Source: a virus | Virus record (IMG/VR): IMGVR_UViG_3300025889_000285 | Location: 1-40,144 of that record | Reading direction: 5' to 3' (one strand) | Length of the DNA stretch: 40,144 bases | Part shown: piece after piece, positions 1,784 to 29,475 of the stretch | Position numbering within the stretch: the stretch's first letter is position 1 | Layout: each line of letters opens with the position of its first letter | Notes under the pieces: generated by a model | What the model was told of the DNA's origin: nothing | The model's input: the letters and a program-made list of their open reading frames with translations, nothing else | Databases searched by the model: none | Position numbers and translations under genes: made by a program

Positions 1784-3726
1784 TGGCAACGTATGAGATA
1801 ACTTCCCCAGATGGGGCAATATACGAAATAACCGCACCTGATAATGCGTCAGAGGCGGAAATTCTGAATTATGCCAAGTCTTCGATGAACTCAAGAAAAC
1901 CGCAAACAAGAGGATCATGGACTGACCCACTGATGCAGGGTTTGACGGGTGGATGGGCGGACGAGTTGGGCTATATGGGAACCAAGGCGGGCGCAACACT
2001 GGCGGGCGCAAACCCAACGCAAGCAAAAGCTATGGCGCAAGCAGAAATGCAGGGGCAACGTGATGATCTCAAGTCATTTCAATCCCGCAATCCATTAACA
2101 TCTTTGGGTCTTGAGTTTTCTGGCGGGCTGGTTTCTGGTGCGCCTGCGGTCAAATTGGCAGGCACAGGGAAACGGGCTTTAGGTGTAGCCGGGCTTGAGA
2201 GTGGGCTGTTTGCAGCAGGCGCGGCTGATGAAAACAAACTGAATTGGGGGATGGGCGGTGCGGCAGCAGGGACAGGGATGGCATTGGCGCTTCCCACGCT
2301 GTTTGCGGCAGCACATGGTGGAGGAAGCTGGTTATATAATCACTTGGTTAAACCAATCTATGACCGCTATGCCAAGAACCCGACAACTGCCGGGGATAAG
2401 ATCATTAAAGAAGGGTTCAGCAATGTTTCGCCGGACGACATCATTCGACGCAAGCAGGAACTTGGCGACATGGCAATGCCTGGAGAATTGGGCGATCAAA
2501 AAACGATTGGACTAACACAGAGGGCGGTGATTGAGTCGCCGGACTCATTGGCACAGGCCAGGACTGCAGTAGGGCAAAGGCGTGAAGGAATGTCGGCCCG
2601 TGTTAAAGAATCCGCCAGGGAGCTTTTTGGAGATCGCCCGTCCATTCTGGAAAGCCTTGATGAAATAACCGCAAGGCAAAGCGCATTGTCGAGTGACGCC
2701 TATAAAGAGGCTTATAAATACGACATCATTGGAAACCTAGATGATGAATTGTTAGAAATAATGAATCGCCCGGCTATCCGCAATCGGATGAAAAGTGTGT
2801 TGGAAAATCTTCGGAACGGAGGCAAGCCAATCCCTGAAATGGAAAAGATAGTCATGCAGGGCGATGACTTTATTTTTACAAAAGAAGCATTTCCAAACAT
2901 GGAAGCCTTGGACCTAATGAAAAGGGAACTGGACCGACAAGTAAACACGGCTTTTCGCAACGGTGCTGTGGACGCCCACAGTATGAAGATTGCAAGAAAC
3001 GCTCTGAGGGATAAGCTGGATAACATGAATCCCGCATATAAAGACGCCAGGGCAGTATTTGCCGGTGATGCCGAATTGGCAGACGCCATCCTTGAAGGCG
3101 AAAAGATTCTGACGAAAAAGGGCAGGGAAGTGCAGGAATATGTCAGGAAATTAAACCCATCACAGAAAGAAGCCTATTTGACAGGCGTGATGGAAGCCAT
3201 CACGGAAAAAATGAATGCTGCGCGAAATGGCACATTGTCATCCTTCAATTTTCTGGAAACCGATAAAGTCAAAAATAAATTAAGGTTGTTATTCCCACCC
3301 ACGCGGGATGGGGCCGATATGCTTGAAAACTTCTTTAGGGCGTTGCAAAAAGAAAGGGATCTAGCTTTCGGTGAAGGGCTGATTGTTGGTGGATCTCAAA
3401 CAGCCATGAGGCAGCATGGCGGTGATTTGTTAAGGAGGCAGGCAGGGCGGTCCGGTGCGATGGACATTGCAACATCGCCGGTCAGGGGGGCATTTGGTGC
3501 AGCGGCATCGAAGGTTGATGATTTAATCAATTCGCTTCCGCAGCAGACATTGGATTATGTCGGCAAATTGCTGACAACTCCAGGGCAGGAGCGAGAAATT
3601 ATACGCATACTGCAAACACAAGCTATCCCTGAAGAAACAATCTCCCAAATCTTGAGCAATTACATGAGAAACATGGGAGGCGTGGCCCCTGCTGCCGTGG
3701 GCAGTAGCACATCGCTGGCACAATGA
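1783..3726 (+). CDS. Large putative ejection / internal virion protein, 647 aa
   Basis: I place the start at ATG 1783, after AAGGA, because the frame then opens with two matched short segments (YEITSPDGAIYEITAPDNASEAEILNYA). Such a module is often seen at the N terminus of phage internal proteins. Residues 70-170 are Gly/Ala-rich with hydrophobic stretches near residues 120-180 that could span a membrane during ejection. The rest is long, charged and helical with Glu/Lys/Arg-rich segments. No catalytic motif is seen. It is the last gene before a strong terminator, closing the late structural operon. Role inferred from size, composition and position. Confidence 0.7.
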   Translation: MATYEITSPDGAIYEITAPDNASEAEILNYAKSSMNSRKPQTRGSWTDPLMQGLTGGWADELGYMGTKAGATLAGANPTQAKAMAQAEMQGQRDDLKSFQSRNPLTSLGLEFSGGLVSGAPAVKLAGTGKRALGVAGLESGLFAAGAADENKLNWGMGGAAAGTGMALALPTLFAAAHGGGSWLYNHLVKPIYDRYAKNPTTAGDKIIKEGFSNVSPDDIIRRKQELGDMAMPGELGDQKTIGLTQRAVIESPDSLAQARTAVGQRREGMSARVKESARELFGDRPSILESLDEITARQSALSSDAYKEAYKYDIIGNLDDELLEIMNRPAIRNRMKSVLENLRNGGKPIPEMEKIVMQGDDFIFTKEAFPNMEALDLMKRELDRQVNTAFRNGAVDAHSMKIARNALRDKLDNMNPAYKDARAVFAGDAELADAILEGEKILTKKGREVQEYVRKLNPSQKEAYLTGVMEAITEKMNAARNGTLSSFNFLETDKVKNKLRLLFPPTRDGADMLENFFRALQKERDLAFGEGLIVGGSQTAMRQHGGDLLRRQAGRSGAMDIATSPVRGAFGAAASKVDDLINSLPQQTLDYVGKLLTTPGQEREIIRILQTQAIPEETISQILSNYMRNMGGVAPAAVGSSTSLAQ

Positions 3727-5355: not shown

Positions 5356-6246
5356 TCACTTGATTGGCCGCACTTTCCGGCCTGTCCGCAGATAATGTTT
5401 TTGGGTTACTGACCTTGATGAATGCCCAAGCTGCCGAGTGGCATCGCCGCCCTGGTCTTCCAATTCGCCAGCATGTGCGGCTCTCAAGTCTTTCAACTGG
5501 AACAAGTCATAAGGCTTGAGTTTCTGTCTAAGTCTCTGCCATGCGGAATCTATGCCTGATTCGCTTATCCCTTGGAAATACCCAGGCTGCAATCTTTTGA
5601 TGACCTTTCGCAGCGAAGGCGTCCATTCAATCCTGACTTTCTTGGCCGTCTTGCCTTCCACTAGATGAATTCCATCCTGGCGGATATTCATGTCTGTCAT
5701 GTTTAACGCATCCTCGCGCCTCAAGCCTGTCAAATAGATGAGCCACATCAAATGCCTCTCTCTTGAATTGGCCTGTCGCATGACCGACCACAATTCGCCT
5801 GGCGACACTTGCCTGTCCCTGGGTGTCTCTTTCACCCGGTACTGCAGGCCACGTAGCGGGTTGAATTCAACAAGCCCCCAGTGGACACACTTTGTCAAAA
5901 CATGCCTCAAAAGGGCGATCTCTCTATTAGCCGACACGTTCCCGAAACGGTCCAGGTATTCGATGGCATGCGGTGCTTTGATCCTATCTACCGGGAAATG
6001 CCCGAAGATCTTGTCCAGCTTTGTAAGTTGCCTTGCCTGGACCTTGGAAGTCTTTTCGGCCTTGGTGAATAAAACCTCTTTTCTGTAGCGCCTGATTGCT
6101 TTGGACAAGGTGTTTAGGCTGATGCCTAATAGTTCCTCAGCCTTGTTGACGGCTTCCTGCTCATCTGGCCCCAGATTGATCCAGACCCATCTGTTTTCCT
6201 TTTTTACCCTCAGTCGGTAGTTTTTACCATGTCTATGAATCTTCAC
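5356..6246 (-). CDS. int: Tyrosine recombinase (phage integrase)
   Basis: The 296-residue protein has an N-terminal arm-binding-like region, a core-binding domain (about 60-140) and a catalytic domain (about 145-296). Visible catalytic residues are R176 (TGLRRED), K199 or K202 (GKTAKK), R255 (KDLRAAHA), H275 (LGHSS) and Y285 (HYLR). The residue that is His in the usual HxxR motif is Lys here (K252). It recombines attP with the host tRNA-Lys gene. The gene starts two bases after a DUF4224 gene, as in many prophages, and its 3' end faces attP. Confidence 0.95.
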   Translation of the reverse strand: MKIHRHGKNYRLRVKKENRWVWINLGPDEQEAVNKAEELLGISLNTLSKAIRRYRKEVLFTKAEKTSKVQARQLTKLDKIFGHFPVDRIKAPHAIEYLDRFGNVSANREIALLRHVLTKCVHWGLVEFNPLRGLQYRVKETPRDRQVSPGELWSVMRQANSRERHLMWLIYLTGLRREDALNMTDMNIRQDGIHLVEGKTAKKVRIEWTPSLRKVIKRLQPGYFQGISESGIDSAWQRLRQKLKPYDLFQLKDLRAAHAGELEDQGGDATRQLGHSSRSVTQKHYLRTGRKVRPIK

Positions 6247-7904: not shown

Positions 7905-8213
7905 TTAAATTTCAAACATGTCAATTTGTTTCGATTTTATTGATCTTTTCAACATGAAGTAATATTCAGAATCTTGCCCAAAAAAACCAAGAGATTTCAT
8001 AGAATGATCATTTCTTAATAGTGCCATTGCTATTGATTTATAGGATGGTGCGCGTAATGACTTTGAAAGTAGCTCAGGTATCTCATCAGGTATCCCATCC
8101 GAATAACATCTCTGTTCCCATGTGCTTATATAACTCTGTATTTTTGAAGTGATGGTATTCCCATGTTTGAATAGCTTGCTCTGCTTCTTTATTTGCCAAT
8201 AATTGCTGCTCAT
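7905..8213 (-). CDS. Small partner of the PP-loop/ParB module, 102 aa
   Basis: Its core reads SKIQSYISTWEQRCYSDGIPDE, then APSYKSIAMALLRNDHSMKSLGF, a pattern I associate with small proteins next to IbrA/IbrB-type genes in prophages. The stretch SYKSIAMALLRNDHSMKSLGF is similar to the C-terminal part of the PP-loop protein encoded upstream (SWKRFAITILKNDHTCKYLGL), suggesting a shared binding module. The start overlaps the preceding gene by 128 bases, and a GGAG 11 bases ahead of ATG 8213 is the only candidate ribosome site. Biochemical role unknown. Confidence 0.72.
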   Translation of the reverse strand: MSSNYWQIKKQSKLFKHGNTITSKIQSYISTWEQRCYSDGIPDEIPELLSKSLRAPSYKSIAMALLRNDHSMKSLGFFGQDSEYYFMLKRSIKSKQIDMFEI

Positions 8214-8508
8214 CAGTTAAGTAACTCCAGGCTTTTCTAGTAATGTCTTCTGGGCAATTTAATGCTAAGGCGCAAGCTGCATGTCCAACCCATGCCTTTC
8301 TATTAATACTGTAATCAGTCAATGCGTTTTCACATGAATATATCCATTCATTAATAACGCGCTTCATATAACTACCATACAACTTATGATTACCAGTAAA
8401 CTCTATTGCTTTCTCCAGCATTGAATTTCGGTCTGATACAGTCCCCCACATATTGTGTTTGATTTCTTCCCATATCTGATATTGATGGTAAATACGTTTA
8501 AGCTGCAT
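8086..8508 (-). CDS. Third protein of the PP-loop/ParB module, about 140 aa
   Basis: Helical protein with a recognisable conserved middle: EKAIEFTGNHKLYGSYMKRVINEW, then NRKAWVGHAACALALNCPE, then a C-terminal segment with Trp and Gln. It accompanies ParB/PP-loop pairs in other temperate phages as far as I recall, but has no known activity. I prefer ATG 8508; ATG 8532 adds eight residues and neither has a strong ribosome site. It overlaps the ParB gene by 11 bases and the 102-aa gene by 128, so all are translationally linked. The region is clearly AT-richer than the late genes. Confidence 0.72.
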   Translation of the reverse strand: MQLKRIYHQYQIWEEIKHNMWGTVSDRNSMLEKAIEFTGNHKLYGSYMKRVINEWIYSCENALTDYSINRKAWVGHAACALALNCPEDITRKAWSYLTDEQQLLANKEAEQAIQTWEYHHFKNTELYKHMGTEMLFGWDT

Positions 8509-9409
8509 CTTCGTTGAATTCCATTTCAGCATCCCATGAATCTGAAAAGTCCTGATTCTGGAATAAAGAAGATAATCCGGTAATTTGCTTCATCCGTAAC
8601 AACTCATCTGGACTCATGCCTATATGCTTGCATATCCATCTGTCACCTTTCCCCATCTCAACAAGCTCAGAAACAATATTGCTCATTAGTTCAATATTGT
8701 GGCTACCCCTCGCCCTGTTGTGTCTGATAGTAGATGCCATTCTGTCTGACATCTCTTTATTGAGTACAACAACAGGCAGCATTCCTTTTTCCCTTTCTCT
8801 AATACGCTCAGAGTCGCGGAGAGTCTTGAATCTATGGAATCCATCAACTACAACATAGGTATCACTATCTGGGTTGTAAACAACTACTACAGGCTGGGTG
8901 TAACCGTCTTCCCAAATAGAGGTTTCAAGCAATTCCATTTCAGGAGGCGCAACACTGTTTGGGTTGTAGTCGTTGGCAGTGACCTTATCTATCGGCACTC
9001 GCCTTACATCATAGACAGGTGATTTATATTCAGATGGATATGACCCATCATCACCGTGTATCTCTTTGCCTTTTAACGGAGGGTTAAAAACACATAAAAG
9101 CGTAACCTCTTCAAAAGCCTGGAAGGTGTGTGGGTCATGCTGGTCTAGGATATAAGTTGTGTCTGGTTCAATAGTGAAAGACTCACCAGTTATTGTATTG
9201 ACAAGTTCACCCTTGCCTGCGATGCAGTAACAACTTTCTATATGATTTTTGTAATGCCAAAATTGCTTTTCACCTACAGGGATGGTTGTTTTGTGTAGGC
9301 CATATCCAACATTATCTTCTTCTATCAAAATCCTGTTACTTATAAAGCCATTATTCGGACAGAAAACAATTCTTTCATTTGCTAATTCATTTGTTTTTAT
9401 AACCTTCAT
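8498..9409 (-). CDS. Ectoine-synthase-like cupin fused to a ParB nuclease-type domain (IbrB-like)
   Basis: Residues 1-125 follow ectoine synthase (EctC) closely: HYKNHIESCYC, YILDQHDPH, and CVFNPPLKGKEIHGDDGSYP. The iron ligands known for EctC (Glu, Tyr, His) align to E58, Y86 and H94. Residues about 130-300 are a ParB/sulfiredoxin-fold domain (VPIDKVTANDYNPN, VVDGFHRFKTLR, RHNRARGSHN) with an HTH-like tail. ParB-like IbrB partners of PP-loop proteins are known; I do not know of an EctC fusion. It starts inside the stop of the PP-loop gene (ATGA). Ectoine synthesis is unlikely because no ectA or ectB genes are present. A sensor or a small-molecule enzyme coupled to DNA binding is more plausible. 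Confidence 0.88.
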   Translation of the reverse strand: MKVIKTNELANERIVFCPNNGFISNRILIEEDNVGYGLHKTTIPVGEKQFWHYKNHIESCYCIAGKGELVNTITGESFTIEPDTTYILDQHDPHTFQAFEEVTLLCVFNPPLKGKEIHGDDGSYPSEYKSPVYDVRRVPIDKVTANDYNPNSVAPPEMELLETSIWEDGYTQPVVVVYNPDSDTYVVVDGFHRFKTLRDSERIREREKGMLPVVVLNKEMSDRMASTIRHNRARGSHNIELMSNIVSELVEMGKGDRWICKHIGMSPDELLRMKQITGLSSLFQNQDFSDSWDAEMEFNEDAA

Positions 9410-10710
9410 GCTACGCTCCTATATTTTTCTTGTATTTCTTTTTGCCTGACAGCTTGTTCCCTGGTAGGAGCAAGCCCCAAATATTTACAAGTGTGGTCAT
9501 TCTTGAGAATTGTTATTGCAAATCGCTTCCATGAAGTCACCATGCTGTTATGGCACTTCAGCATATCCAGGTGATCTGGTGGTCTTTTTATAATTACCCG
9601 TTGCAGTGAGTTGCCACCATGAGGGGTGACACCATTTAACTTAAAGGGGATTCGATTGCTTTCTAAATCACTGATGATTTCTTCTGGCAATCCGCGCCCT
9701 ATCCTTCCCCAGTATTTGATTGACTGGATAAAACGCTGTCTAAAATTTTCACCAACTTCCTTTGGCAGGGTTTCTAACAAAAACTTAACAAATGATTTCC
9801 ATGTATGACCATTGGGGAGATTGAATGAGTGATAGCTCAACTGTTTTCCGTATGTCGCTATAAAATTAGCACCAGCAACCCTGGCGCATAATCTGGCCCA
9901 TACATCAGGATCAATGACGCGATAAAGAGATAGACTGCTTTTAGACTCACTCATAAATGGCGAAGCGACCCGCATTTTTCCTACTGGTACGCCAGCCCTA
10001 TAGAAAATGTCGTATAGCTTGTTGTATTCAAAATCAAAACGATCGTTAGCTATCCATACATCATCTGTTTTCCAATCATAAATAGGGTATACGTTATAAG
10101 TGTGCAAAGTATTCTTTTTCGTCCAGGGTTTTCCAGAAAACATCACTTTATCTTCATTCATTATTGCCCTGAATCGATTTAGGCTTTCTGATGCCCTGAT
10201 TCCTATAAGATTGGCGCAGCTTTTCCCTTGTGAGTACCATTCTGCGAAACCATCCCAAAAATCATCGTAGTGCATATTTTCAACAAAGAAATCGAATGGA
10301 TGATTGGCGATATTTACAATGTAGTCATTGTCAGGCATTGGCCTAACCCATTTGTCTTTGTCTTCCTCTCCCCAACACTGCCAATCAACAGCGTATGAGG
10401 AGATCGTACAAGGCAAAGTTATAGGCAAACAACACCAATAAATATCGAATAAATCCCTATTGCTCTGCAATATAGAGTGCATGAAGTTCAAGGATTGAAT
10501 GTAATTAGCTTCGTTGTCTAATATTTGAATGCCTATTTTTTTATCTATTTTGTTTTTACGCATATATTGGATGACAAGATTTATCATCAATCCTGAATCC
10601 TTACCTCCAGAAAATGAAAGATATATCCGTTCAAAATTATTGAAGATAAAATCTATGCGCTCCATTGCAGCGTCATAAACATTCTTATTTTTGTTATATA
10701 CTCTTTTCAT
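9406..10710 (-). CDS. PP-loop ATPase of the PAPS-reductase / DUF3440 family (IbrA-like)
   Basis: The N terminus carries the PP-loop SFSGGKDS (residues 32-39 from ATG 10710), which binds ATP for adenylation. The rest shows PAPS-reductase/DUF3440 features: LIGIRASESLNRFRAI, YPIYDWKTDDVW, and PFMSESKSSLSLYRVIDPD. The family includes IbrA of E. coli prophages and is distantly related to DndC, which places sulfur in DNA. The substrate is unknown. I start at ATG 10710, one base beyond the upstream stop; ATG 10731 would add seven residues. Its stop overlaps the cupin-ParB start. Local base composition is AT-rich, suggesting a separately acquired module. Confidence 0.9.
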   Translation of the reverse strand: MKRVYNKNKNVYDAAMERIDFIFNNFERIYLSFSGGKDSGLMINLVIQYMRKNKIDKKIGIQILDNEANYIQSLNFMHSILQSNRDLFDIYWCCLPITLPCTISSYAVDWQCWGEEDKDKWVRPMPDNDYIVNIANHPFDFFVENMHYDDFWDGFAEWYSQGKSCANLIGIRASESLNRFRAIMNEDKVMFSGKPWTKKNTLHTYNVYPIYDWKTDDVWIANDRFDFEYNKLYDIFYRAGVPVGKMRVASPFMSESKSSLSLYRVIDPDVWARLCARVAGANFIATYGKQLSYHSFNLPNGHTWKSFVKFLLETLPKEVGENFRQRFIQSIKYWGRIGRGLPEEIISDLESNRIPFKLNGVTPHGGNSLQRVIIKRPPDHLDMLKCHNSMVTSWKRFAITILKNDHTCKYLGLAPTREQAVRQKEIQEKYRSVA

Positions 10711-10711
10711 T

Positions 10712-11470
10712 CTAAAAAGGAATATCGTCATTTGGTTGATAATTCTTGGTCAACTGCCAGTATTTCAATAGGCAGAGAAATTTTTCATAATGACTGCCTT
10801 CATCGGCCCGTTCTTCCCAAACATGCCAGACAATTAAGCCAGGGTTGTTTCGGCTGACGAAAACATTTGCCATCCTGGCATTCGCCATTCCCAGTCCATG
10901 TGCGTATGCCGCAAGCTGCATAGCATGTTCGTCCCAAGCCATTTTCTTGCCCATGTCCTCGGGTCCGAAATCTTTGGTTTTGTAATCGATGACCCACCCA
11001 CCGGGATGGTGTAAATCACACATTCCGCCATAACCATTGTGCGAAAAACTTTTTTCAGCTATCCAGCCGTCTTCAAATCCAGTGACTTCAAGCGTCCTTT
11101 CTTTAACTAGCTCGGCAATCTCACGCCATGTCCCGGCGGGTTCATCCTTCCAGACGGCTTCTATATCGGCATGAATGGCCGATCCGGTTTCCATCGCCTG
11201 CTTGGTTTGCTCAGTAGAATCCTGCTTTGCGCGTTTTTTATAATCGTCCAGGCTTTCGCCTTCGACCTTTGGCAGAGTCAAGGCCGACAAAAGTGCCTGC
11301 TCAACTAACCAGTTGGTCAGGGCAGGCTTTGCCGCCATGTTCAAGATTTCTGTCACGGATGGGAAAAGGTTTTCTTTCCTGGCATCACGCAAAGTGGTTG
11401 CTCTTTCGTTGCCGTTTTTCCCAACAATAAAATGCCGAGGGTTGCCTTCTGAATCGTACCAGTGGCCCAT
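10712..11470 (-). CDS. PD-(D/E)XK exonuclease of the recombination operon
   Basis: A 252-residue RecB/Cas4-type nuclease. Motifs in order are GSAIHADIE (about 97-105), GGMCDLHHPGGWVIDYKTKD (acidic residue, then the D-x-K pair) and QLAAYAHG (QxxxY). It would resect double-stranded DNA 5'-3' and load the annealing protein encoded two genes upstream, as in lambda Red-like systems. The C terminus is QPNDDIPF, an SSB-like tip not usual for this nuclease class. Its start overlaps the stop of the 88-aa gene by one base. Confidence 0.9.
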   Translation of the reverse strand: MGHWYDSEGNPRHFIVGKNGNERATTLRDARKENLFPSVTEILNMAAKPALTNWLVEQALLSALTLPKVEGESLDDYKKRAKQDSTEQTKQAMETGSAIHADIEAVWKDEPAGTWREIAELVKERTLEVTGFEDGWIAEKSFSHNGYGGMCDLHHPGGWVIDYKTKDFGPEDMGKKMAWDEHAMQLAAYAHGLGMANARMANVFVSRNNPGLIVWHVWEERADEGSHYEKFLCLLKYWQLTKNYQPNDDIPF

Positions 11471-11736
11471 TAGTCCTCCTGTGTGATTGCAAGCAGATCA
11501 GAGATTTTGCGGTCGATTTCCATGACACGCGCTTGAGCGGCGGCATGGATTTCTTTTTTCAAATCTTTCAATGCTTGGATTTCGATATTGACAATTTCTT
11601 CGCGTGGCCTTTCAACAAAATCAACCTCTACATATTCAGTCATGCGAATAAAATCATCCTTGTTTTCGTAAAATTCCCGGCTCTCACCGATGGTGATGTA
11701 ATCATGTTTCACGCTTCTGTATTGGGCTATCTTCAC
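11470..11736 (-). CDS. Small helical protein of the recombination operon, 88 aa
   Basis: Acidic N-terminal half with aromatic residues (YITIGESREFYENKDDFIRM) followed by a long amphipathic helix (about 40-80) ending ISDLLAITQED. It lies between the ERF annealing protein and the exonuclease and overlaps both, so the three are expressed together. Unrecognised small genes at this position are common in phage recombination operons. No function can be read from sequence. A coiled-coil partner of one neighbour is possible. Confidence 0.75.
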   Translation of the reverse strand: MKIAQYRSVKHDYITIGESREFYENKDDFIRMTEYVEVDFVERPREEIVNIEIQALKDLKKEIHAAAQARVMEIDRKISDLLAITQED

Positions 11737-12329
11737 GCAGCTAACCTCTCTTTTGCTTGGTTTTTGTCATCTTCGTAAAGCGCATGTTGATCTTTGTTCA
11801 GCGACTTCCAGATCGCCGCGAGTTCCTCGATTGATTCCGCTGATTCGAATTTCTGTAGGATGCTTTTGACTTTGCGTGGCTTTTTAACTGGAGTAGGGTC
11901 TTCTGGCGAACCATAACGCGATTCGTCATCATCGCCAGATTCAAGGGCGAAAACCTTCAGCATGGCCATTTTTACGGCATAAGAAACAGCCTTGCCAGGT
12001 GCTTTATCGCCGTTATCGTCTGCATGTGATTCGATCTCTAAAACAAGCCTGTCCTCGGGCGCGTCTACATTGACGAAATCTACAGAATAGGTGGCTTCAT
12101 AACGTATCTTTTCGCCACCCTTTTGAGTAACACCTGGGATGCTCTCAGATGACTTTAATGATGGATAGATCACTATCCCATGTTTGACTAACAGTGGATG
12201 CAGCATCCCAGCTACAGCGTCATGTGAAACAGCAGAATAGGTATTATTGCCCCAGCCTACGGTTGAATCTTTCTTGACATAACTGGTTTCAGCCATGACG
12301 GCATTGATTCTTTGAAATATGTTTTTCAT
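11733..12329 (-). CDS. erf: ERF-family single-strand annealing protein
   Basis: 198 residues. The ERF domain covers about 1-140. It opens with a segment ending VGWGNNTYSAVSHD, continues through LLVKHGIVIYPS, and ends in the hallmark DNGDKAPGKAVSYAVKMAMLK. A Pro/Lys linker and a helical C-terminal domain (about 155-198) follow. ERF proteins form rings that anneal complementary single strands, giving the phage its own recombination and circularisation route after infection. It is paired with the exonuclease downstream and the start codon follows directly on the 61-aa gene. Confidence 0.93.
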   Translation of the reverse strand: MKNIFQRINAVMAETSYVKKDSTVGWGNNTYSAVSHDAVAGMLHPLLVKHGIVIYPSLKSSESIPGVTQKGGEKIRYEATYSVDFVNVDAPEDRLVLEIESHADDNGDKAPGKAVSYAVKMAMLKVFALESGDDDESRYGSPEDPTPVKKPRKVKSILQKFESAESIEELAAIWKSLNKDQHALYEDDKNQAKERLAA

Positions 12330-21687: not shown

Positions 21688-22545
21688 ATGAACGAGGCAA
21701 TTTTAGAGGAAACAGCTGAAGAACGTGATTTTTTTGAGACTGGAGGGCAACAAGATGAAGTGCAAGACACCCAAGAAGCCACAGCCGCCGAAGAAAGGCC
21801 GGTAGAAGCCAAAGAGGAAACCAAGGAAGAAAACACCATCCCGCATGCGCGATTCCATGCAGAAATGCAGGAACGACAGCGTTACCAGGCAGAGGCGGAA
21901 GCACTCAGGCGTCAGAATGAAGAACTGATGTCCTTGAAAGAACAGCTTAACGAATTACGCCAAGGCAAGGCTCAGGAAGAAGACAGCCAAAGTTTCGATA
22001 ATGACCCGCTGGGTTACATGAAGAACAAGATTGACGGCATGGAGCAGATGACAGCGCAACAACAAGCGCAATACCAGCAGGCCATGCAGCAACAGCAAGC
22101 GATTGCCAATCTGAATAACTGGGCTGGCACACAGGTTAATGAATTTGCCACAAAGCACGAAGACTATGGCGATGCGTTGAATTTTGTCATGGAAAAACGC
22201 GCCGAGCAGTTGAGGTTTTTCAATGAACAGATGGGCGTGAACACACCCATCGAGCAGATCCTGCAACAAGAGAGCTTCAATCTCATCGCCCAGGCCGCGC
22301 AAATGGGTAAAAACCCGGCGGAAATCGTTTACAACATGGCCAAGTCACAGGGGTATAAGAAGCCCGAGACTGAAGCCAAGTCCAAACTCGACACAATCAA
22401 CAAAGGGCAGGCGGCATCTCAGTCTTTGGCAGGCACTACCTCGAACCCTGATGTAAAACCGAATGTGTCAGACATTTCCGGCATGTCAGATGAAGAATTT
22501 GATGCTTACTGGGCCAGGTATGAAAAGGAAGCTAGGGCGCATTGA
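21688..22545 (+). CDS. Capsid scaffolding protein
   Basis: ATG 21688 has GAGG upstream; the frame from TTG 21661 overlaps the portal and is less likely. The product is very acidic and Gln-rich: Glu/Thr/Ala-rich residues 1-45, a coiled coil with EALRRQNEELMSLKEQLNEL, a run of Gln around 110-140, and a C-terminal acidic end (SDISGMSDEEFDAYWARYEK). This composition and its place between portal and coat genes are typical of scaffolds, which shape the prohead and then leave it. Confidence 0.88.
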   Translation: MNEAILEETAEERDFFETGGQQDEVQDTQEATAAEERPVEAKEETKEENTIPHARFHAEMQERQRYQAEAEALRRQNEELMSLKEQLNELRQGKAQEEDSQSFDNDPLGYMKNKIDGMEQMTAQQQAQYQQAMQQQQAIANLNNWAGTQVNEFATKHEDYGDALNFVMEKRAEQLRFFNEQMGVNTPIEQILQQESFNLIAQAAQMGKNPAEIVYNMAKSQGYKKPETEAKSKLDTINKGQAASQSLAGTTSNPDVKPNVSDISGMSDEEFDAYWARYEKEARAH

Positions 22546-23089
22546 AGACTTCCCTGTCAAAGACTATGCAGAACGTGTCAAGTATTTGAGGGATGCCTGG
22601 ACAGAACGGCAAGGCTTTTTCACTTTGGGCGCAGCCGCCTATCTGGACAGGGACTATCGGGAACTGGCGCATCAGGTCAACCCGGTCATCTGGCACTACT
22701 TTCCAGACTTGTTACAGGACATCAAGACATACTTTGACGGGGAATATGACTTAACCATCGGGTTGCCGGGCTTTCACATCTTTGACAAACAAAGCAATGG
22801 CCTGGTGGGTAGTATTCATGTAGACACGCCCTGGGCGAAAATCTGGGGCCGGGCCGATGATGTGTTTTCCTTCACTTTACCTTTAGAACTGCCGTCCTTT
22901 GGCGGTGGCTTAAACTGGTGGGATGAAGGCATGCACTTCATGGACTACGAGATTGGCAAGCTATACATCCATGATGGCGCAACCTATCATCAGATCGCGT
23001 CTTTAGGTGATATGGCTGAAGACGAATATAGAATTACACTACAGGGCCACGGTGCAACCGTGGGTAATCGCAAATACCTGTACTTCTAG
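22520..23089 (+). CDS. 2-oxoglutarate/Fe(II)-dependent oxygenase-like protein, 189 aa
   Basis: The double-stranded beta-helix signature is visible: GSIHVDTPW (H100, D102), YIHDGATYHQIAS (H157) and EYRITLQGHG (R171), i.e. HxD...H...R with the Arg that holds 2-oxoglutarate. The family includes prolyl hydroxylases and nucleobase oxygenases. It sits between scaffold and coat genes, so it is made with the capsid and may hydroxylate a virion or host protein. ATG 22520 overlaps the scaffold gene by 26 bases and its ribosome site is weak, so the exact start is uncertain. Confidence 0.82.
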   Translation: MKRKLGRIEDFPVKDYAERVKYLRDAWTERQGFFTLGAAAYLDRDYRELAHQVNPVIWHYFPDLLQDIKTYFDGEYDLTIGLPGFHIFDKQSNGLVGSIHVDTPWAKIWGRADDVFSFTLPLELPSFGGGLNWWDEGMHFMDYEIGKLYIHDGATYHQIASLGDMAEDEYRITLQGHGATVGNRKYLYF

Positions 23090-24875: not shown

Positions 24876-26291
24876 ATGATTGTTGGAGAAGAACTTAAAA
24901 GACTGAACGCTTTGCAGCAGACAGCATCCACGGCGGACGAACTCAAGTATCTCATTGATGAATATTCCGCATTGTTGAACACCGTTCCTGAAGACCCTGT
25001 GATTACATTTCTTCTAGCGACGGCAAACATGCAGTATGGCTACAACGGTGTGGCGATTGCGCTATTTAAGCGTGTCTTGTATTACCACCCGGATTTTCAT
25101 GAATGCTGGAATAATTTGGGCAGCAGTTGGAAGGCCGAGCATGAGAACGACAAGGCGCTGGAGTGTTTCTTAAAAGCCGTACAGTATGCGGACGAAAAAG
25201 ATCACAAAGTCCTGTCTGACTACTTCAACAATTTAACCACGTTATATATCAATACAGGCGATCCCAAACCGGGGCTGCCTTATGCCGAAAAAGCGGTTGA
25301 GCTAAACCCTGATTCACCCAAAGCTCACTGGAACATGGGCCTGGTCTTATTGGAAATGGAACAATGGGACCGAGGCTTTCAAGAGATGGACGCCGGTTTG
25401 TTGAGCGGTGATCGCCCGTTACGATTCTTTGCCCAAGACCCTGAAAAGATTCCCTGGTGGGAAGGCCAGGAGGACGGCAAGATTATCGTCTACGGTGAGC
25501 AGGGCATGGGCGATGAGATTCTTTTCGCGTCATGTATGAATGACCTCATTGATGAAGTCGGCAAAGACAGGGTGATATATGAATGTCACCCAAGAATGGA
25601 GAATTTATTTAAGAGGTCTTTCGATGTCGAGGTTGTCCCGACAAGAAAGAAGATGGAAATCACCTGGCCCATGGATCGGGATGACATCGGGTACAAAATA
25701 GCCATCGGGTCATTGATGCACCGTTACCGCATGAACGGCGATTTTCCGAAGACAGCTTATTTAACGCCTGACAGCGAGATGGTGGAAGACTATCAGAACA
25801 TGCTGCAGGAATGGGGCAAGGGTCCGTTTATAGGCATTGGATACGCAGGTGGTAACAAGCGCACATCCTCGCATGAGAGAAGTTATAAATTAAAAGAACT
25901 TCTACCCATACTGGAACAGGACGCAACTTTTATATCCTTGCAGTACACCAAGGGCGCAAAAGAAAAGTGGGATCGGTTCTATGACGACACCGGAATTCGT
26001 GTCCATCACTGGGACGACGTGGTGCGTGGCTTTGACTATGACGAAAGCGTGGCCCTGATGGCGGCACTGGACCTGGTAATCGTGCCGAACACCACAGCCG
26101 TGCATGTCTGCGGCGCAATTGGCCAGGACTGCTGGACATTCACACCCAAAGCGAAAGCCTGGCGGTATTCAGACCGGGATGAGATGGCCTTTTATGGGCG
26201 CTGGGTACGTCAGTATCACGAGAGTGATGACCAGATCGAGCGCATGGCTGACGACTTGGCGGAATTTCTCGACACCCGGGCGGCAGCATGA
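24876..26291 (+). CDS. TPR-domain glycosyltransferase-like protein (GT-B)
   Basis: 471 residues. About four tetratricopeptide-type repeats occupy residues 1-185 (FHECWNNLGSSWKAEHENDK, SPKAHWNMGLVLLEMEQWDR). The second half is a GT-B-like domain (IIVYGEQGMGDEILFASCMN, PFIGIGYAGGNKRTSSHERS, LDLVIVPNTTAVHVCGAIGQ) similar to heptosyltransferase/OGT-type enzymes. A TPR-linked transferase suggests that a protein is the acceptor. It opens a six-gene block of sugar and methyl transferases inside the late operon. The next gene overlaps its stop by four bases. Confidence 0.82.
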   Translation: MIVGEELKRLNALQQTASTADELKYLIDEYSALLNTVPEDPVITFLLATANMQYGYNGVAIALFKRVLYYHPDFHECWNNLGSSWKAEHENDKALECFLKAVQYADEKDHKVLSDYFNNLTTLYINTGDPKPGLPYAEKAVELNPDSPKAHWNMGLVLLEMEQWDRGFQEMDAGLLSGDRPLRFFAQDPEKIPWWEGQEDGKIIVYGEQGMGDEILFASCMNDLIDEVGKDRVIYECHPRMENLFKRSFDVEVVPTRKKMEITWPMDRDDIGYKIAIGSLMHRYRMNGDFPKTAYLTPDSEMVEDYQNMLQEWGKGPFIGIGYAGGNKRTSSHERSYKLKELLPILEQDATFISLQYTKGAKEKWDRFYDDTGIRVHHWDDVVRGFDYDESVALMAALDLVIVPNTTAVHVCGAIGQDCWTFTPKAKAWRYSDRDEMAFYGRWVRQYHESDDQIERMADDLAEFLDTRAAA

Positions 26292-26920
26292 ATGTAGCCA
26301 TCATAGGACACGGACCCTCCATGCTGGGCGGATTCCTGGGTAAAGAGATCGACGAGCATGACAAGGTGATCCGTCTGAAACGCTGTCAGGATACCCTGAA
26401 ATATCCTGGCCACTATGGCCGAAAGGTCTCGGCGGTCTGCGGGTCTTTGACGATTGGCGCACACCTTAAAAACATCCCGGCAGATGGATATTGGGTTTTT
26501 GCGGATTCGCGCCATAAGGATCAGGACATCAATCTTGAGGCCTACAAAGAACACTTCTCACCCAAGCCGGTCATCATTGATCGGAAATTGTGTGACGAGT
26601 GGAACGAACGCTATCGGGACTTGCGGACAGAGCGTGAATTCCCTGACACGGTGGAACTGAAGAAGTCATCCACCGACAAGCTGGGCGAGGATCACCTATC
26701 CGCAGGCTTGCATGCTGTTTTGTATGCCGCGAAACACTTAAAGCCTGAAAGGATTGACTTGTTCGGATTTGATAACGTGTTCACCAGAGATTACGGCTGG
26801 TCGATCACACGCGGACCTGAGTGGGACAAGTACCCACCACACAGGTGGGATATTGAGAAAGACTTGTTGAACGACATTGAGCAGGAGTTTGATACCGAGA
26901 TCCACTTTGTTTTTCCATGA
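26288..26920 (+). CDS. GT29/sialyltransferase-like glycosyltransferase
   Basis: The N terminus NVAIIGHGPSMLGGFLGKEI, with HDKVIRLKRCQ next, follows the first sialyl motif (VxxVGNGPSxxG...DxVIRxN). Later LSAGLHAVLYAAKHLKPERI and DLFGFDN match the second. Proteins of this type are common in phages and bacterial surface loci and move a sugar (possibly a nonulosonic acid) to an acceptor. The actual donor is unknown. The 210-residue length is short but complete for phage versions. Confidence 0.78.
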   Translation: MNVAIIGHGPSMLGGFLGKEIDEHDKVIRLKRCQDTLKYPGHYGRKVSAVCGSLTIGAHLKNIPADGYWVFADSRHKDQDINLEAYKEHFSPKPVIIDRKLCDEWNERYRDLRTEREFPDTVELKKSSTDKLGEDHLSAGLHAVLYAAKHLKPERIDLFGFDNVFTRDYGWSITRGPEWDKYPPHRWDIEKDLLNDIEQEFDTEIHFVFP

Positions 26921-26931
26921 TGAGGCACATT

Positions 26932-27639
26932 ATGAATAAATTTTTAACGTCCTTTTCACAGGACGGCTATGAGCTGTACGGGCGGCGATTCCTGAAAAGT
27001 TTCGTCAAGTATTGGGATTTTCCGATTGTTGTCTACTATGAACAAGAACCGGACTTTGAACACCCAAACGTCACCTATAAGAATCTGTTTGACGTTCCAG
27101 GGTGTAAGGAATTCCTAACCGCAACCGGGTCAACCTTTCCCATCTTCAGAGGGACGGTGGACGATCAACGGAACTATCGGTTTGACGTGCATACCTTTGC
27201 ACGAAAGATGTTTGCACAGGTAGACGCCGCGACTGAACACCAGGGCAACCTGTGGTGGATAGACGCAGACACTGAAATAAAGAAAGCACTTCCAGAAGCC
27301 TGGCTGGATGACGGGCTGAAAGAAGTGTTTATGGCATATATGGGTCGGCCTGGCTGGCATAGCTGTGCCTCACTTGTTGGCTGGGACACGACCCACCCTT
27401 ATGCAGAAGCCTTTTTTAACGCTTATTTGAATTTACATCTGACCGGACAAATCTTCGCACTGCCTGAATGGCATGATTCATTCGTTCTCGATGTCTTGCG
27501 GACTGAAAGCCAGTTACCGTCACGCAATCTGGCAGCAGACATTGAAATGAGCGATGGCCCGGTGAATGTTTTTGACCTGGTGATGGACGGCAAAGCGGTG
27601 CATTTCAAAGGTAACAAAAAATACCGGATGGCCTCATGA
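26932..27639 (+). CDS. GT-A type glycosyltransferase, 235 aa
   Basis: ATG 26932 follows GAGG; the frame from 26917 adds five residues. The DxD metal/nucleotide-sugar motif is seen in GNLWWIDADTEIKKALP (about 105-121), with FPIVVYYEQEPDFE before and a mixed alpha/beta end. Family not certain among GT-A enzymes. It lies in the middle of the glycosylation block, overlapping the FkbM gene by four bases. Confidence 0.75.
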   Translation: MNKFLTSFSQDGYELYGRRFLKSFVKYWDFPIVVYYEQEPDFEHPNVTYKNLFDVPGCKEFLTATGSTFPIFRGTVDDQRNYRFDVHTFARKMFAQVDAATEHQGNLWWIDADTEIKKALPEAWLDDGLKEVFMAYMGRPGWHSCASLVGWDTTHPYAEAFFNAYLNLHLTGQIFALPEWHDSFVLDVLRTESQLPSRNLAADIEMSDGPVNVFDLVMDGKAVHFKGNKKYRMAS

Positions 27640-28247
27640 TAGGGCCGTATAAGCACATTGTATTGCCGAAGTCAGATACGCATTTCAAACCTTTTGTTAA
27701 AAAGGGCAAGTACCAGCTGGCTTTGTTTGGCAAAGGCGTTGAAAAAACGAAACGCTTCGGCACAGCGGTAGACGTGGGCGCTCATGTGGGTTTCTGGTCA
27801 TGTGCCATGGCGGATAAATTTGACAAGGTAATCGCGTTCGAGCCGGTTAAGGATAACTACGACTGCCTGGTGAAGAACGTGCCAGACAACGTGAAAACCT
27901 ACAATTATGCTTTGGGTGAGAAGTCGAAGCGGATTGGTTTGTACAACCCGGCTCCTGACAATTCCGGCGCCTGGGAACACAAGGATGGCGATGAGTATTC
28001 GGTGCATTCACTGGATTCTTTGGAATTCGTAGAGAAGATTGATCTGATTAAGATTGACGTGCAGGGCATGGAAATGGCTGTACTAGAAGGCGCAAAGAAC
28101 AAAATCAAGCAGAGTCATCCTGTGATTATCACAGAGATTCCGAAAGGCGAAGCGCAGCGTTCTGATGAAGTGCAATTTATTTTATTTGAACTGGGCTACG
28201 ACAACGTGCAGATTATTGGCAACAAAACCGCAATCGGGTGGTGGTGA
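27636..28247 (+). CDS. FkbM-family methyltransferase
   Basis: 203 residues. AdoMet-binding motif I AVDVGAHVGFWSCAMADKFD, then VIAFEPVKDNYDCLVKNV, and LDSLEFVEKIDLIKIDVQGM followed by EMAVLEGAK are FkbM hallmarks. These enzymes O-methylate sugars or small molecules, here probably the glycan built by the neighbouring transferases. Start and stop overlap both neighbours. Confidence 0.9.
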   Translation: MIGPYKHIVLPKSDTHFKPFVKKGKYQLALFGKGVEKTKRFGTAVDVGAHVGFWSCAMADKFDKVIAFEPVKDNYDCLVKNVPDNVKTYNYALGEKSKRIGLYNPAPDNSGAWEHKDGDEYSVHSLDSLEFVEKIDLIKIDVQGMEMAVLEGAKNKIKQSHPVIITEIPKGEAQRSDEVQFILFELGYDNVQIIGNKTAIGWW

Positions 28248-28768
28248 TGATTTCTGCAGAATACAGAGCCTTAAATACTCAGTTGCACATGGAACGCAAG
28301 GACTACGGACGCTCAGGGCGAAAGTGGGCAGTCACCGTGGCGGATTTGGTCAAAGAGTCTGGCGCACAGTCTGTGCTGGACTACGGCTGTGGTAAGTCTA
28401 CATTTAAGAACGCTTTCAGCCAACTTTCTGACATACCGGTATCAGAGTATGACCCTTGCATTCCAGGCAAGGAAAAATTGCCCGATCCCGTGGATGTGGT
28501 GGTGTGTACTGATGTGATGGAACATATTGAGCCGGAATTCTTGGATGAGGTTTTATCGCATATTCATTCATTGGGCAAATTGTTTGTCATGACCGTGGCA
28601 ACAAGGGAAGCAAAGCGCAAACTACCAGACGGCAGAAACACACATTTGATTGTTCGGGGTGTTGACTGGTGGCGTGAAAAACTGTCCGAACATTTCACGA
28701 TACTCGGAATTCAGATGGACCCGACTGAAAACGGTGAATTTTTAACCATCATGGCGAGGCACACATGA
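28247..28768 (+). CDS. Class I SAM-dependent methyltransferase, 173 aa
   Basis: ATG 28247 shares its first base with the preceding stop. Motif I is SVLDYGCGKSTFKNAF and the post-motifs are VDVVVCTDVMEHIEPEFLDE. It is a compact Rossmann methyltransferase in the group found in phage sugar-modification islands. Substrate unknown; a glycan or a small metabolite is likely from context rather than DNA, because no target-recognition region or N6A/5mC motif is present. Confidence 0.82.
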   Translation: MISAEYRALNTQLHMERKDYGRSGRKWAVTVADLVKESGAQSVLDYGCGKSTFKNAFSQLSDIPVSEYDPCIPGKEKLPDPVDVVVCTDVMEHIEPEFLDEVLSHIHSLGKLFVMTVATREAKRKLPDGRNTHLIVRGVDWWREKLSEHFTILGIQMDPTENGEFLTIMARHT

Positions 28769-29475
28769 AAAAACTAGAAATATATATCGGCTACGATCCG
28801 GTTGAATCGGTGGCATGGCACACATTGACGCATTCGATTCTAAGTCGAAGCTCGATCCCGGTGTCCTTTACGCCGGTTAATATTCGCAACCTGAAGAAAA
28901 TCTTCAATCGTAAACGCGACCCAAAACAAAGCAACGAGTTTTCTTTTTCACGCTTTTTAGTGCCTTACCTGAACAACTATCAAGGTTTCGCGCTGTTCAT
29001 GGACTGCGACATGATGCTGAGATGTGACATTGCGGAGATTCTTGAACAGGCAGAACTGGACCCAGGGAAGGCCGTTTATGTGGTGCAGCATTCCTATAAA
29101 CCCAGCGATAACATCAAGTATCTGGATACCGTTCAATACCCGTATCCGCGTAAAAACTGGTCGTCCGTGGTCTTGTGGGATTGCTCGCACCCTTCTAATC
29201 AAGCCGTCACGCCGGAATGGGTGGAGACTGCATCAGGGCTTGATTTACATAGATTCACCTGGCTGAAGGACGAGGAAATCGGCGAACTTGATGTCAGATG
29301 GAACTGGCTGGTGGGTGAATACGCCTCTCCACCGGAGGACGTGAAAAATGTTCACTGGACAATCGGCGGGCCGTATTTCCGTGAATACGCACACGTCGAC
29401 TTTGCAGACGAATGGTTTACTGAAAAATCCCTGATGAACCATTGCATGCAGAGAAGCGAGGTTAAAAGTGCGTAG
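28765..29475 (+). CDS. GT8-like glycosyltransferase
   Basis: 236 residues. IYIGYDPVESVAWHTLTHSI, FSRFLVPYLNNYQGFALFMD with CDMMLRCDI (the DxD), and KNWSSVVLWDCSH are features of GT8-like retaining transferases in phages and bacterial surface gene clusters. It is the last of the six modification genes and overlaps the zinc-finger gene that follows by eight bases. Confidence 0.8.
   Translation: MKKLEIYIGYDPVESVAWHTLTHSILSRSSIPVSFTPVNIRNLKKIFNRKRDPKQSNEFSFSRFLVPYLNNYQGFALFMDCDMMLRCDIAEILEQAELDPGKAVYVVQHSYKPSDNIKYLDTVQYPYPRKNWSSVVLWDCSHPSNQAVTPEWVETASGLDLHRFTWLKDEEIGELDVRWNWLVGEYASPPEDVKNVHWTIGGPYFREYAHVDFADEWFTEKSLMNHCMQRSEVKSA

Follow-up and report, generated by a model that had tools for sequence, protein, structure and literature searches.

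The window analysed here (the whole 40,144-nucleotide stretch of viral DNA, IMG/VR record IMGVR_UViG_3300025889_000285) carries at positions 8498..9409 of the minus strand an open reading frame that begins with ATG, has no internal stops and codes for a 303-amino-acid protein of two parts: an EctC-like iron cupin (residues 1-126) and an IbrB-type ParB/Srx domain with a helical C-terminus (residues 128-300). An earlier note on this DNA had described the fusion without giving its strand. The cupin domain (9029..9409, minus strand, approximately residues 1-127) contains the predicted iron ligands E58, Y86 and H94, and F22 occupies the place of Trp-21 of characterized EctC. The IbrB/ParB domain (8498..9028, minus strand) contains the nucleotide-loop motif VVDGFHR (residues 187-193), an HNRARG motif and the helical end.

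The fusion gene overlaps by 4 bases the gene of IbrA (9406..10710, minus strand), a PP-loop ATPase (SGGKDS motif) with PAPS-reductase and DUF3440 domains (DUF3440, PF11922, E=5.5e-56 for the frame 9406-10731; the listed open reading frame starts from 10731, a start at 10710 being likelier). The same 4-base overlap between IbrA and a fusion-type gene is present in 68 loci. On the other side of the fusion gene lie two small minus-strand genes that had no place in the earlier note's reading. The first, d148 (8086..8532), codes for a conserved all-helical protein, for which we found no family in Pfam, NCBIfam, PHROG or PADLOC, no credible relative by profile search or PDB fold comparison, no match in plasmids and none in 149 genomes of one bacterial phylum, the last being a weak negative since that set holds no positive control. 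The second, d102 (7905..8213), codes for a small homologue of the C-terminal region of DUF3440/IbrA and overlaps d148 by 128 bases in a different frame. The two are a conserved long overlapping gene pair: an overlap of 110 to 140-odd bases (8086-8213 in the window) is found in 76 of 80 related loci, and the relative frame is always the same. The fusion gene sits in a run of recombination genes; a PD-(D/E)XK exonuclease-like gene (10712..11470, minus strand) lies directly upstream in the same gene run, and an Erf-like single-strand annealing protein is encoded at 11733..12329 (minus strand). Both belong to the context, a recombination/replication operon, the exonuclease gene lying outside the conserved set of genes described below.

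The assignment of the N-terminal part to EctC, made in the earlier note from the sequence alone, was borne out by family searches, with residues 1-126 matching Pfam Ectoine_synth (PF06339) at E=1.6e-40 and 138.7 bits (cut-off 27), the protein scoring 138.5 bits against the NCBIfam ectoine synthase model PRK13290 (cut-off 128) and EctC chains in the PDB matching it at E=3.6e-26. The three iron ligands named there likewise align with Glu-57, Tyr-84 and His-92, the iron ligands of Paenibacillus lautus EctC (PMC6344544). An AlphaFold2 model of the cupin half is a beta-barrel with a pLDDT of ~90, the structure that the note's reading called for, and its top PDB matches are the EctC structures 5bxx (S. 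alaskensis, TM 0.94 by target) and 5onm (P. lautus), with TM values by target not exceeding 0.94. Further fold matches, 6b8w and 1y9q, are cupin sensor domains in transcription factors.

The C-terminal half is, as had also been claimed, ParB/IbrB-like. Residues 135-200 match ParB_N at E=4.8e-5, slightly below the family cut-off, PHROG 2159 (ParB-like) matches the protein at E=7.5e-83, and this half is 57-69% identical to plain IbrB proteins; its AlphaFold model is poor. Its nucleotide loop reads DGFHR, as against GERR of the ParB CTPases, and the DGxHR(Y/F) loop of IbrB proteins resembles that of the free serine kinases SbnI and SerK (DGxHRY), which the IbrB profile matches weakly (E 0.03-0.05), Noc/ParB scoring higher. 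With IbrA as partner and a loop other than GERR, a plasmid-partition ParB is not favoured. In the defence library PADLOC, neither the fusion nor d102 has a match, and the best match of IbrA is to DndC of DNA phosphorothioation, at a weak E=4e-7.

The cupin is not a standard N-terminal extension of IbrB, a possibility that the earlier note had raised against itself: plain IbrB proteins of bacterial genomes (loci L087-L112) and most phage IbrB matches begin at the ParB part, and relatives in bacterial genomes are nearly all plain IbrB without a cupin. No fused EctC was found in 299 sampled genomes of one bacterial phylum, where the longest EctC-like open frame had at most 223 amino acids. An IbrA-IbrB fusion in a Cellulomonas locus (L107) proved to be apparent only, being a long unrelated frame with IbrA in a different frame.

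The fusion is part of a widespread phage module that consists of IbrA, IbrB, the EctC-like cupin, d148 and d102. We searched IMG/VR with three different queries, which lessened but did not remove the identity bias toward the query; the scans share contigs, and each was examined at its best 80 loci. The whole fusion protein matched at least 186 places, the best 80 of which are all fused. Among 38 non-redundant loci, IbrA is present in 38, d148 in 37 and d102 in 36, and any other gene family in at most 13 (leaving aside antisense and alternative shadow frames within core genes). The scan with d148 matched at least 583 places and supplied 73 new loci; all five parts are present in 67 of these, and the remainder are mostly interrupted by contig ends, absence from fragmentary contigs being weak evidence. 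For the cupin, a scan with an exact peptide was too narrow (one match) and was replaced by one with a bacterial EctC profile, which gave 173 places; 79 of the best 80 have IbrB, and 73 of the 80 have IbrA, IbrB, d148 and d102 together. The co-occurrence with the PP-loop gene that the earlier note had proposed to look for is thus near-universal.

At the same best 80 of 173 places, the cupin is fused in 35, adjacent in 34, elsewhere in the cluster in 10 and beside ectB in 1. With 35 fused and 44 separate cupins, fusion is only one arrangement of these genes. Once identical sequences were removed, 120 distinct sets of IbrA, IbrB and cupin remained (80 fused and 40 separate), and a tree of IbrA plus IbrB requires at least four changes between the two states, three of them forced by well-supported branches. 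The fusion on which the earlier note laid its stress therefore exists but is not essential. Gene order is variable and membership constant, IbrA or IbrB sometimes standing at the far end; plain IbrAB loci are without d148 and without a separate d102. One locus, L202, has IbrA, cupin and IbrB and is without d148; the same absence in L085 is apparent only, its contig ending just inside d148. The sole EctC-like genes found outside the module on virus-labelled records, L192:1376-1792 (IMG/VR) and L084:1244-1636 (a gut scaffold), form ectB-ectC pairs that look like host-type ect clusters.

The architecture as such is already in GenBank, so the earlier note's impression that it was new did not hold: gp104 of Mycobacterium phage Gaia is the same fusion and is annotated as 'ectoine synthase/ParB multidomain protein'. 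What is new is the module context, which is apparently undescribed; we found no paper on the fusion or the module in the open-access literature. Gaia (gp103-107) and phage Nebkiss carry the same module; the Gaia fusion gene adjoins a gene named 'PAPS reductase' in GenBank, and, unlike in the window, a GIY-YIG-type gene is inserted. Pseudoalteromonas phage XCL1123 (QGJ84328-QGJ84331) also has the module, its cupin and its ParB protein being encoded separately. A shorter row of IbrB (ParB), d148 and IbrA, three parts that the window has as well, occurs without a cupin or a separate d102 in Pseudomonas phage Amjad_SA and Microcystis phage Mwe-JY13; it probably represents a simpler version of the module. 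The IbrA/IbrB pairs of phages and bacteria share with the window the DUF3440 PP-loop protein and the ParB-like protein in one operon and differ in having no cupin, d148 or separate d102; E. coli K-12 YbdN/YbdM are IbrA/IbrB-like by their description (PMC9068703).

We next consider what the cupin may do. In P. lautus EctC the substrate is contacted by Trp-21, Arg-25, Asn-38, Thr-40, Tyr-52 and Glu-57 (PMC6344544). Equivalents of the window's iron ligands E58, Y86 and H94 are present in 77, 77 and 76 of 77 viral cupins, respectively, and those of Ser-23, Arg-25, Thr-40, Tyr-52, Glu-115 and His-117 in all 77. Conversely, the equivalent of Trp-21, which is invariant in 437 EctCs of ect clusters and whose replacement in W21A leaves 9.7% activity (PMC6344544), is present in none of the 77, being Phe in 49 and deleted in 24. 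Residue 39, beside Thr-40, is K or R in 71 of 77 viral cupins, as against D, E or I in bacterial EctCs. The viral cupins form a single clade apart from 33 others (SH-aLRT 99, stem 0.67) in a tree of 126 columns that has little resolution within the viral clade. The bacterial orphan EctCs are also EctC-like proteins without ectAB whose function is unsolved (PMC5924519, PMC6344544); they keep Trp-21, in some cases two residues away from its usual position, and the examined ones consist of one domain and are without IbrAB.

As the earlier note had stated, neither ectA nor ectB is found in the window record, and we share its view that ectoine synthesis is unlikely. Family searches of 23 whole phage records, which may be incomplete, found no ectA and no ectB/dat; in control genomes the ectA and ectB searches do pick up distant relatives. 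Since the iron ligands and core residues are nearly invariant and the EctC fold is kept, and since Trp-21 is lost, residue 39 is basic, the viral clade is separate and ectA/ectB are absent, we infer that the viral cupin is an active iron-dependent cyclase with an altered substrate. Compared with true EctC, then, it has the fold, the three iron ligands and most of the substrate core in common, and differs in the lack of Trp-21 and of ectA/ectB, in being fused or clustered with IbrB and in its separate clade.

A search of IMG/VR with a degenerate form of the EctD motif WHSDFETWH retrieved only three contigs, and in all three a gene for an EctD-like Fe/2-oxoglutarate dioxygenase lies between IbrA and the cupin (L231:3003-3977, L225:3066-3998 and L269:2912-3763), directly before the cupin or before its methyltransferase neighbour. 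Two of these genes were tested and scored 284.5 and 172.8 bits against TIGR02408 (cut-off 336.5) and E=1.2e-76 and 1.1e-43 against PDB EctD, so that they rank as EctD-like and fall short of the level for EctD proper; the L269 gene was recognised from the motif and resemblance only. Methyltransferase-like domains accompany two of the three hydroxylases. In L269 a separate methyltransferase gene stands ahead of the cupin (PHROG methyltransferase, E=1e-17), and L225:4001-5500 encodes a 499-amino-acid triple fusion of cupin, methyltransferase-like domain and ParB, the middle domain of which was recognised by eye from similarity to L269. These putative tailoring enzymes provide the strongest indication of a product made by the cupin; since EctD-type genes occur on three contigs only, hydroxylation would be optional. 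The earlier note had left the choice between a sensing and a modifying protein; the nearly invariant core residues and the EctD-like hydroxylases favour the enzyme and make the sensor less likely.

With moderate confidence, we propose that the fusion joins an EctC-like cyclase to an IbrB subunit, both belonging to a phage enzyme module that forms an ectoine-like ring, most likely on phage nucleic acid. IbrA would adenylate and so activate a group by PP-loop chemistry; IbrB would bind a nucleotide and probably also DNA, and bring the cyclase to the same target; and the substrate, in which the cupin would close a cyclic amidine ring like that of ectoine, would differ from free N-gamma-acetyl-diaminobutyrate. 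A few phages may also hydroxylate the product by means of an EctD-like enzyme and methylate it by means of a methyltransferase-like domain. The least certain step is the target, which would most likely be phage nucleic acid, the outcome being a hypermodified base or nucleotide that could serve, for example, against host restriction.

The pointers to a nucleic-acid target are the ParB-type domain, the weak match of IbrA to DndC, the recombination and replication neighbours and a single contig (L011:4074-5336) in which a single frame joins d102 to a DNA polymerase processivity factor of the sliding-clamp type (PHROG 947, E=6.4e-34). A position near replication genes is common to any early phage gene. 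A precedent comes from Dnd and Dpd, two modification systems with ParB-superfamily proteins (PMC12839542, PMC10853773), where DndB (ParB family, with the PP-loop protein DndC) and DpdB (ParB-like) are paired with base- or backbone-modifying enzymes much as IbrB is here, although the resemblance of IbrA to DndC is only weak. The fully specified form of hypermodification, in which activation by IbrA readies a base or nucleotide to receive a diamino-acid-like side chain, the cupin closes the ring and EctD-like and methyltransferase enzymes decorate it in some phages, is more tentative, and we put it forward as a possibility.

Because these pointers are indirect and the IbrB loop resembles that of SbnI/SerK, we also considered a cupin that acts on an amino acid, cofactor or nucleotide in free form, for instance by a kinase/cyclase route with a SerK/SbnI-like IbrB, and yields a signal, a counter-defence molecule or a metabolite outside DNA or RNA. 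EctC substrates are free amino-acid derivatives, and EctC accepts L-glutamine with low efficiency (PMC5924519), which makes a free small-molecule product possible. The kinase match is, however, weaker than that to Noc/ParB, and the fusions of d102 to a clamp and of the cupin to ParB point to DNA; we regard a free product as rather unlikely. A regulatory role is unlikely, too; in it, DNA binding by ParB/IbrB would be adjusted by a cupin that responds to a metal or a small molecule, and IbrA would act as co-activator in the manner proposed for E. coli IbrAB on prophage genes. A ParB-type domain with a helical C-terminus would suit such a regulator, cupins serve as sensor domains in transcription factors (the fold matches mentioned above), and IbrAB are, according to a reference as cited in PMC10434257, named for activating prophage eib genes. 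Yet the conserved residues are catalytic, beyond what mere binding calls for, roughly one third of the distinct sets have a free-standing cupin gene, sometimes beyond IbrA, and tailoring enzymes of the EctD and methyltransferase types stand in the cluster. Least probable is an osmoprotective auxiliary metabolic gene making free ectoine (or, with EctD, hydroxyectoine) from host-supplied N-gamma-acetyl-diaminobutyrate: the ectoine synthase score above the cut-off, the EctD-like genes of three phages, a 2026 survey that interprets viral ectoine synthase in this way (PMC13079714) and an orphan Pseudomonas syringae EctC reported to function in a Halomonas ectC mutant (PMC5924519) are outweighed by the absence of ectA/ectB from the 23 phage records, the loss of Trp-21 from every viral cupin, the fusion to ParB and the near-obligatory link to IbrA, IbrB, d148 and d102, none of which is known to take part in ectoine synthesis.

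Since nearly all viral EctC-like genes found in IMG/VR belong to the module, labelling a viral 'ectoine synthase' as osmoprotective, as in that survey (whose contigs lie outside this comparison), is unsafe without checking for IbrAB neighbours. The module joins three open questions, the roles of orphan EctC-type enzymes, of IbrA/IbrB and of the phage 'ectoine synthase', all now testable in the culturable phages Gaia, Nebkiss and XCL1123; should nucleic-acid hypermodification be true, the long-unexplained IbrAB pair would gain a biochemical role.

Several minor observations concern the module and the window. GIY-YIG-type endonuclease genes are repeatedly inserted at module joints (L082:6890-7264, L203:4395-5147, L011:2532-2852, L200:3666-3983 and L236:3509-3844), as identified by Pfam for L203, by annotation for Nebkiss gp105 and by resemblance for the others. 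Inspection of the window by eye suggests a tyrosine recombinase/integrase-like gene at 5356-6246 (minus strand), which, if correct, would make the phage temperate, a possible Fe/2-oxoglutarate oxygenase amid structural genes at 22463-23089 and, at 24876-29475, clustered genes that resemble those of glycosyltransferases and FkbM methyltransferases. Finally, in L126 a 1-Cys-type peroxiredoxin gene (2736-3485) stands between IbrA and IbrB at the cupin's place, which is curious as IbrB belongs to the sulfiredoxin superfamily.
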